From Acidobacteriota bacterium (GTDB lineage Bacteria; Acidobacteriota; UBA6911; RPQK01; JAJDTT01): a stretch of 64,000 nt of DNA. How positions within the stretch are numbered: the first letter of the stretch is position 1; every line of letters begins with the position of its first letter. Shown one piece after another: positions 4,703 to 6,976 of the stretch. A program made the translations under genes and the position numbers. The notes under the pieces were generated by a model, which was not told where the DNA came from, did no database searches, and was given only the letters and a program-made list of their open reading frames with translations. The DNA is taken from the NCBI GenBank assembly GCA_028874215.1, contig JAPPLF010000068.1, positions 45,127 through 109,126 on the forward strand. Reading direction: 5' to 3'.

Positions 4703-5559
4703 CGGGCCGACTTCTCCGCCATGATTCTACTGGTCGCCATATAGGTGTAGATGCCCGTGGTCGCCAGAGAGATCACATCCAGATGGCGGATGGAAAGGCC
4801 GGTCAGGGTCACCGCCGTTTCAATCGTTACGGCGGGCGTCAGGCTGTAGATGGCGATCGCCAGATAGGCGGGATAAGGGAACTTCACTTGGTAACGGGTC
4901 GTCACCGAGAGGGCAAGCAGAGTGAAGAGCAAGGCCAGAACCAGTTTGACCGCGAAGGTGAATACCAGAACCAGGGAATACGCGGTTGGGAAATAAACCC
5001 ATTTCATGACCTCAAGCCAGTTCCGGAGCAGTTCCGGAGTGACTTCGAATGAGCCGAAATCCGTCCAGGGAAAGGTTTCCACCGACTGGTTCCGGCGTAG
5101 CACGAGGGCGTCTTCGGTGAAAAGGAGCAGCGGCTCCGGGAAACGGGCCAAGTCCTGGCGGCTTCCCGTGGTGTCGAAGATCAGGGTGACGGGTTCCCGG
5201 CCGGAGTACGTCTGGATCAGCGGCTGGTCCGCCTCCACGCGGAGCCGGCCCTCGCTCACCTGCATGGGAGGGACATTCTCCTGGAGCCAGATTCCGAATT
5301 CCCGAAACTCCGGGCCCAAGTGAAATGCGTAGGCCAGAGTCACGATCAAGGAGGCGTGGGCGCAGAGATAAAGCAGATAGAGCAGGGTCTGCCGGGGAGG
5401 TTGCGCCAGTATCGTCTTGTAGAACGGGAATTCAGTGATGGCCCAGTAGAACTGGCGGTAGAAGGCGGTCCTCATGGCTGACACGTGCGAGATCTGTCCC
5501 GGGTCGGTCGTTCCGGCATCCGCGGCGGCAATCGCCAAGGATTGGGCGTAAACGGACAC
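4699..5559 (-). CDS. DUF1189-family integral membrane protein
   Basis: 286 aa from a GTG; an ATG 28 codons later (5475) is an equally possible start because neither has a strong ribosome site. It opens with the aromatic FYRQFYWAITEFPFYKTIL stretch seen at the start of DUF1189 proteins. One membrane helix (about 60-80) follows, then a soluble loop of about 110 residues (VSEGRLRVEADQPLI, FDTTG), then a bundle of three or four helices to the end. DUF1189 proteins have no assigned activity. The gene leads the operon with the VWA protein, hinting at a shared envelope role, which is inference. Confidence 0.75.
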   Translation of the reverse strand: MSVYAQSLAIAAADAGTTDPGQISHVSAMRTAFYRQFYWAITEFPFYKTILAQPPRQTLLYLLYLCAHASLIVTLAYAFHLGPEFREFGIWLQENVPPMQVSEGRLRVEADQPLIQTYSGREPVTLIFDTTGSRQDLARFPEPLLLFTEDALVLRRNQSVETFPWTDFGSFEVTPELLRNWLEVMKWVYFPTAYSLVLVFTFAVKLVLALLFTLLALSVTTRYQVKFPYPAYLAIAIYSLTPAVTIETAVTLTGLSIRHLDVISLATTGIYTYMATSRIMAEKSAR

Positions 5560-5620
5560 TGGAAAGACTTACTGTTCCAAGCGATCCTTCACGATTTGGT
5601 CGATCACACTGTCCGGCGTC

Positions 5621-5645
5621 CCTGAAATCAGCGTCTGATTTCAGG
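5621..5645. other. 11-bp perfect hairpin after zinc-ribbon gene
   Basis: CCTGAAATCAG (5621-5631) and its exact complement (5635-5645) flank a three-base loop, five bases beyond the stop at 5650. It has no T run on either side, so it is either a transcript-end stabiliser, a factor-dependent terminator or the scar of the event that extended the adjacent gene. Confidence 0.5.
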
Positions 5646-5649
5646 TAGG

Positions 5650-6852
5650 TCACTTCTTCGCAATCGATCCACTGGGCACCCGCTCAGCCTTGATTCCCCG
5701 CTTCCTGATCTCTTCTATGAGCCAGTCAATGCCGGACCATTGATCTGCTCTTTCCAGCCCTCTCCGCCACGTTTGCGGCAGTGACACATGGCGTCTGGCT
5801 ATGCCATGAGAGATTCCCCGTTGCGGATCCGGAATCCATACAGCCGACTTGACACGCAACCCGTACGGCCATCGATCCGCTCCTGGAACCGAATTCGGAA
5901 GTTCATACGGCCCCTCTTCGGCGGCTATCTGTAGACCCATGTAGATCCTATTCCCGGGCCCAGGCCAGTAGATCAACATGAGGTCATTCTGCTGGATCTG
6001 TTTCTCAAATTTCTGGCCTGTATCTCGGGAAAAGTGTTGGTACTTGAGGTCTTCTGGAATCCACTTCGGCTTAGGGTGTTCGGAATCCCCTTTCATCGCC
6101 TGCCATATGGGACCCGCCTTCCATTTGGACCGACTAATAGCATTGGGCGGTACATAATAAAGGATTCGATTGCAGGTCTCGCAGGTCAATATCTTCAGAC
6201 CGGTCTTGACCTCAGTGAAGAGCTGGGGACGAAGCGTCACGTTGCAGGCTTGGCAGGATTCGTCGCTGACCGGTGCCAGGGCCTGCCCGTTGTTGACCGA
6301 GGCGATCCTGCGGTACTGTTCGAGCAATGGTTCGGGCAGGTTCCGTTCCAGCCGGTTTCGCTCCTGCTCAAAGTCGGCCATGTTGGTCTCGGAACCGGCC
6401 GCGAAGGTCTCCAACTCCTTTTGCCGGGATGACACCTCCAAGGCCCGTTCCTCGGCCCGGCGGCGGGCTTCGCGGGTCTGGTCATCCAATTCGTCCATGG
6501 CCAGCATGATTTCCAGGATCTCATCTTCCTTGCTGGAGATCTGTTCCCGGACGCCGGCGATTTCGAGCTGCATGGCCTTGTATTCCCGGTTGGTCTTGAC
6601 GTCCATGAGCTGCTCCTGGTAGCGGGACAGCTTCTGCTGCAGCAAATCGACTTCACCCTCCAACCGGCGTTGGGTCCGGGCTTGCCGGTCGGTTTGCTCC
6701 CGGAGCTCTTCTACGGCGTCGTGACTCTCCTGGAGCGACTCGGCCTGATTCTCGATCTCGTCAGGAATGGACAAGACCCGCTGCCGCAACTCGACGATAC
6801 TGGCGTCGAGTTGCTGCAGCTGGATCAACCTCTGCAACTCTTCGCTCAACAC
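5650..6852 (-). CDS. C4 zinc-ribbon coiled-coil protein fused to EVE/PUA-like domain
   Basis: 400 aa. Residues 1-190 are a long coiled coil (RLIQLQQLDASIVELR onward) and 200-235 a C4 zinc ribbon (CQAC then CETC), the standard build of the zf-RING_7/CdsZ-like family, which normally stops soon after the ribbon at RILYY. Here about 165 residues follow. The segment with NDLMLIYWPGPGNRIYMG resembles the nucleic-acid-binding EVE/PUA-like fold, a tentative match by eye. DNA for the extension is much poorer in G+C: 25 of 60 bases at 6001-6060 against 44 of 60 at 6421-6480, which points to a recent acquisition. The start ATG lies 46 bp downstream of the tRNA gene. Role unknown; the family has been linked to ribosome or envelope functions. 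Confidence 0.75.
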   Translation of the reverse strand: MLSEELQRLIQLQQLDASIVELRQRVLSIPDEIENQAESLQESHDAVEELREQTDRQARTQRRLEGEVDLLQQKLSRYQEQLMDVKTNREYKAMQLEIAGVREQISSKEDEILEIMLAMDELDDQTREARRRAEERALEVSSRQKELETFAAGSETNMADFEQERNRLERNLPEPLLEQYRRIASVNNGQALAPVSDESCQACNVTLRPQLFTEVKTGLKILTCETCNRILYYVPPNAISRSKWKAGPIWQAMKGDSEHPKPKWIPEDLKYQHFSRDTGQKFEKQIQQNDLMLIYWPGPGNRIYMGLQIAAEEGPYELPNSVPGADRWPYGLRVKSAVWIPDPQRGISHGIARRHVSLPQTWRRGLERADQWSGIDWLIEEIRKRGIKAERVPSGSIAKK

Positions 6853-6898
6853 ATGCCTCCATGGGACGGTCCGGACCGGCAGCCGGCGTCGGTGGCTA

Positions 6899-6972
6899 TG
6901 GGCCCAGTAGGACTCGAACCTACGACCACCTGATTATGAGTCAGACGCTCTAACCGACTGAGCTATGGGCCC
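6899..6972 (-). tRNA. tRNA with CAT anticodon (elongator Met, possibly Ile2)
   Basis: 74-nt cloverleaf on the minus strand: a 7-bp acceptor stem starting GGGCCCA, D arm TAGCTCAGTCGGTTAGAGC, anticodon loop CTCATAA with anticodon CAT, and T arm with GGTTCGAGTCC. The discriminator base is A and the CCA tail is not encoded. The D-arm and loop sequence exclude an initiator tRNA. A lysidine-modified tRNA-Ile that reads AUA has the same encoded anticodon, and the GGGCC acceptor start leaves that option open. Confidence 0.93.
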
Positions 6973-6976
6973 ACCG

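Follow-up and report, generated by a model that had tools for sequence, protein, structure and literature searches.

The COG1579/CT398/HP0958/MSMEG_4306 proteins share an N-terminal coiled-coil hairpin (PF24481) followed by a C4 zinc ribbon (PF02591). Binding of RNA or of RpoN is established for two of them only: the HP0958 ribbon binds flaA mRNA, and the CT398 coiled coil binds RpoN (reviewed in PMC5947703). The EVE domain (PF01878, PUA/ASCH superfamily) also enters into fusions, and the main text of a survey of EVE fusions (PMC7641849) contains no fusion to a COG1579-type protein.

A zinc-ribbon protein with an added C-terminal region

Here, we describe a zinc-ribbon family member that, relative to the family, carries approximately 165 added C-terminal residues. 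The gene lies in a 64-kb stretch of Acidobacteriota DNA, called the window, with the following features:

5650..6852, minus strand: fusion ORF, 400 aa, starting at GTG, or at TTG one codon later
6301..6819, minus strand: CT398-type coiled-coil hairpin, residues 12-184 (PF24481, E=3e-12)
6160..6258, minus strand: C4 zinc ribbon, residues 199-231, Cys 200/203/224/227 (PF02591, E=9e-11; cysteines)
6109..6153, minus strand: linker, residues 234-248, the NAISRSKWKAGP region, past the ancestral protein end (relatives end about here; congeners align)
5695..6108, minus strand: orphan C-terminal domain, residues 249-386 (homology to a standalone gene in genome G014; dN/dS; GC3)
5653..5694, minus strand: C-terminal tail, residues 387-400, the last ~10 codons being an out-of-frame tsf relic (DNA alignment)
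5537..5681, minus strand: relic of tsf (elongation factor Ts), 3' part, 145 bp (EF_TS HMM; DNA alignment)
5621..5645, no strand: perfect 11-bp hairpin within the tsf relic, particular to this genome
4699..5475, minus strand: DUF1189 membrane-protein gene, the ancestral next neighbor (PF06691, E=6e-27)
6898-6973: tRNA gene, anticodon CAT, upstream of the fusion ORF

A sigma-70 gene is likewise located upstream. The fusion protein exceeds the cut-offs of both family models: PF24481 with 47.2 bits (cut-off 27) and PF02591, the ribbon with two CxxC pairs, with 42.1 bits (cut-off 29.1). Judged by these matches, residues 12-231 are a coiled coil plus C4 zinc ribbon of the CT398/COG1579 type. The protein obtains 48 bits from the NCBIfam CdsZ equivalog model NF047363, which has a curated cut-off of 275 bits, and thus is no CdsZ equivalog.

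The original prediction, made from the window's letters, was that the frame continues past RILYY, near which the family normally ends, that G+C content falls beyond this point, and that a perfect 11-bp hairpin follows the new stop. Each of these observations holds. Specifically, no stop codon occurs until 5650, leaving an in-frame extension of ~165 residues past the ribbon, with YYVPPNAISRSK at the junction. Relatives outside the genus, where their 3' ends were read, finish 1 to ~36 residues past RILYY. The G+C counts are confirmed exactly, 44/60 for 6421-6480 and 25/60 for 6001-6060; just 0.4% of 60-bp windows across the 64 kb are as low as the latter. GC3 is 0.80 over residues 1-233 but 0.60 over residues 234-400. 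The hairpin arms, at 5621-5631 and 5635-5645, lie just beyond the fusion stop.

The zinc-ribbon protein is present in 57 of 60 genomes, that of the window included, where the fusion is the only family copy found. Thus, the role usual for the family must fall to the fused protein. The exception among the short-ended relatives is G059, whose protein has an unrelated C-terminal extension of ~125 residues with no Pfam match. The existence of this different extension implies that the C-terminal end of the protein tolerates additions. The extended G059 gene is L090 (G059:C92), at about 631-1713. Behind the zinc-ribbon gene, DUF1189 follows at a distance of 10 to ~320 bp, on the same contig and strand, in five of the seven genomes outside the genus that were searched for it.

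Distribution of the extension

Searching other genomes for the two-domain architecture, as the original prediction proposed, uncovered it in two congeners. The extension is fused in the window's genome (G000), G001, and G002, and these versions are 89-90% identical. The prediction called the fusion recent; because three congeneric genomes share the insertion, the fusion instead predates the split of these species. In G001, the contigs break within the extension (L017 and L003, G001:C263 and C194), and a contig of G003 (L019, G003:C1) ends inside the ribbon. Readthrough of the extension in a single contig thus pertains to G000 and G002 only.

An unfused homologue of ~149 aa exists in another genome of the order, Acidobacteria bacterium AH-259-O06 (G014, L059). 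This standalone gene aligns with the orphan domain over its full length at 39-41% identity, differs by an insertion of ~10 residues, and possesses its own ATG and Shine-Dalgarno sequence, with GGGAGGTGATGG immediately 5' of the ATG. Its start coincides with the conserved start of the domain (IWQ). The ORF directly 5' of it (L049, G014:C237, 2238-3071) encodes a VGLNPGG motif reminiscent of uracil-DNA glycosylases; searches of Pfam, NCBIfam, and PDB with this ORF returned nothing, and we place no weight on the resemblance. G001 harbors, in addition, a decayed version of the orphan domain, truncated, interrupted by a stop, and with no zinc-ribbon fusion (L046 3941-4189, G001:C34).

Beyond these examples, the domain is rare. 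In a sample of 396 genomes from the phylum, matches are confined to G000, G001, G002, and G014, and the window's genome contains no additional copy. A 149-genome class of the phylum yielded a single chance-level match to the domain profile. That match, a weak one in G469, reads unlike the orphan-domain family and was taken as chance. We also considered a phage, plasmid, or viral source for the extension and rejected it, as matches in the phage, plasmid, and viral-contig collections never rose above chance. Finally, two N-terminal motifs were used to scan ~85,000 species genomes, a search that relatives divergent in these motifs could escape; it recovered only three loci, all in Acidobacteriota (G002, G014, and G001).

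A tsf relic behind the fusion gene

The fusion ORF ends inside the remains of another gene, a feature absent from the original prediction. Specifically, between the fusion gene and DUF1189, all three congeneric genomes carry a segment matching the 3' part of tsf (PF00889). Stops and an indel break its frame, and it is not functional. The EF_TS HMM detects the relic, internal stops included, at the curated cut-off in G002 (E=9.1e-6) and more weakly in G001 (8e-4). DNA alignments to the genus's own tsf score 41 in G000, 55 in G001, and 61 in G002; shuffles reached 17 at most. Over 144 bp, the relic of G002 shares 72% identity with own-genus tsf, and its score against the tsf of G014 is far lower, 20, suggesting that it descends from a native duplicate that decayed. 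The first part of the relic is read out of frame by the fusion ORF, which furnishes the C-terminal RVPSGSIAKK (~10 codons). Past a 1-nt indel, the tsf frame and the fusion frame are the same, and the relic's TGA is the fusion stop.

Domain capture versus readthrough

Evidence that the extension is maintained as protein comes from comparing the three congener pairs. dN/dS is 0.23-0.31 for residues 234-400 and 0.22-0.29 for the coiled coil, and nonsynonymous change in residues 234-400 is significantly depleted in each pair (Fisher p = 9.8e-4, 6.0e-7, and 3.7e-4). The frame remains open through the extension in G000, G001, and G002, with no stop or frameshift, save two bases missing between the G001 contigs. 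Together, the purifying selection, the open frame, and the coincidence of IWQ with the standalone gene start argue for a real protein domain that was captured before the species diverged.

These findings bear on three other ways in which the long frame could have come about. Were the extension meaningless readthrough following loss of a stop codon, the dead tsf sequence that makes up the final ~10 codons and the stop would be in keeping with it. The original prediction had identified such a simple stop loss, together with absence of the extension from all relatives, as the outcome that would overturn it. On the contrary, congeners share the extension, selection on it is as strong as on the coiled coil, neither frameshift nor stop interrupts it in three genomes, and a standalone homologue retains the conserved residues; we regard a lost stop as highly improbable. 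An assembly chimera, for which the contig breaks at or close to the extension (G001, G003) could speak, is less credible still, to the point of being negligible: single contigs of G000 and G002, with diverged sequences, cross the junction, and both halves are present in G001. Independent assemblies thus disfavor an artefact. Indeed, an extension that is common to congeners and under purifying selection is attributable neither to a lost stop nor to assembly error. It could also be imagined that the orphan domain is still produced separately, from an internal start, with the open linker frame incidental. Standalone relatives of the domain are known, and an in-frame ATG occurs just past the domain start (GCG ATG AAA GGG). 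However, initiation there would cost the domain its conserved IWQ start, that ATG lacks a well-placed Shine-Dalgarno sequence, and the linker frame is open in three genomes. Separate production is accordingly improbable, although less remote than the other two.

With respect to domain capture, we are confident of the following structural history, as read from the sequence comparisons. Approximately 0.6 kb of DNA became lodged between a COG1579/CT398-type gene and DUF1189 before the sampled congeners split. This DNA comprised a small, foreign-looking, low-G+C gene for the orphan domain plus a 3' fragment of tsf. Reading of the zinc-ribbon frame then extended across the small gene as far as a chance stop within the tsf relic, and the orphan domain thereby became a lasting C-terminal part of the sole copy of the zinc-ribbon protein. 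By sequence, the result is a new architecture within a known family: a conserved, lineage-restricted domain capture involving an orphan domain of putative fold and function. The locus presents a clean instance in which a small gene was made into a permanent part of a bacterial protein that is single-copy and widely conserved; the scar of capture, the tsf fragment, can still be read and a free-standing relative is available for comparison.

Identity and putative role of the orphan domain

The original prediction envisioned an EVE/PUA-like domain fused to the zinc-ribbon protein. A compositionally distinct extra domain is borne out by the relatives, the standalone homologue, and the purifying selection; its assignment to EVE/PUA is not supported by the profile and structure searches. 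Searches of Pfam, NCBIfam, PHROGs, PADLOC, and PDB with the extension returned no usable match. The EVE profile PF01878 did not match it up to E=5-10, nor did ASCH or other PUA-superfamily domains in Pfam. An EVE match with a probability near 100% had been proposed as the confirming result; hhalign against a same-phylum EVE profile gave 1.5-2.3%. AlphaFold models of the extension have low mean pLDDT values (39.9 and 44.3), and Foldseek found nothing under E=0.3 for these low-confidence models. The window's genome encodes a separate, true EVE protein, and a plain BLOSUM alignment of the extension to that protein is off register and was equaled in 19 of 500 shuffles. Profile and structure work drew on three to six homologous rows only, and the EVE negative is therefore weak.

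The likeness to EVE is a faint, in-register resemblance of the core motif, without a significant profile or structure match. Specifically, the top hhalign alignment keeps the register of the EVE core (helix, GD..lIYh.g....vGia.vv..PY); its score exceeds that of 195-196 of 200 column shuffles, with 4-5 doing as well, and the predicted helix-strand-strand order fits, at low confidence. Set against the low hhalign probability, the lack of a match in Pfam, NCBIfam, and PDB, and the poor, matchless models (pLDDT 40-44), a negative that the few homologous rows weaken, these points leave it doubtful that an RNA-binding protein has here been joined to a divergent member of the EVE/PUA superfamily, one that reads modified RNA or DNA bases. 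A bolder version is that the extension founds a new, lineage-restricted branch of the PUA superfamily that reads a modified base. On this view, a zinc-ribbon protein that bound RNA in general would, by capturing the extension, have become in this genus a nucleic-acid reader that is aware of modification. We view this version as a long shot.

Because the orphan domain matches no fold or family, we infer a nucleic-acid role from its partner domains only. By analogy with them, it is probably a nucleic-acid-binding domain captured by an RNA-binding protein family. The notion is that the coiled coil would bind protein partners and the ribbon would bind RNA, as in CT398 and HP0958, and that the added domain would give the protein one more surface for binding, most likely of nucleic acid, altering target choice or affinity. 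That functional effect is a guess, and a tentative one; taken as a whole, history and function together, the explanation is a reasonable possibility to which we would not quite commit. If the domain does bind nucleic acid, it would open a way into the COG1579 family, which is poorly understood.

The hairpin and the DUF1189 start

Two smaller features trace to the tsf relic. At the site of the hairpin, the congeners' relic contains a quasi-palindrome, and the perfect 11-bp palindrome occurs only in the window's genome; its perfecting was possibly the outcome of template-switch correction. The RNA fold z-score is -3.0 in the window's genome versus +1.3 in G002. A shared terminator was considered and rejected, as the hairpin does not resemble a terminator, lacks a T-run, and is not conserved in G002. 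Finally, the GTG at 5559, listed as the DUF1189 start, falls within the tsf relic. The congeners carry stops in this overlapping sequence, upstream of the ATG, and DUF1189 is therefore probably translated from the ATG at 5475.
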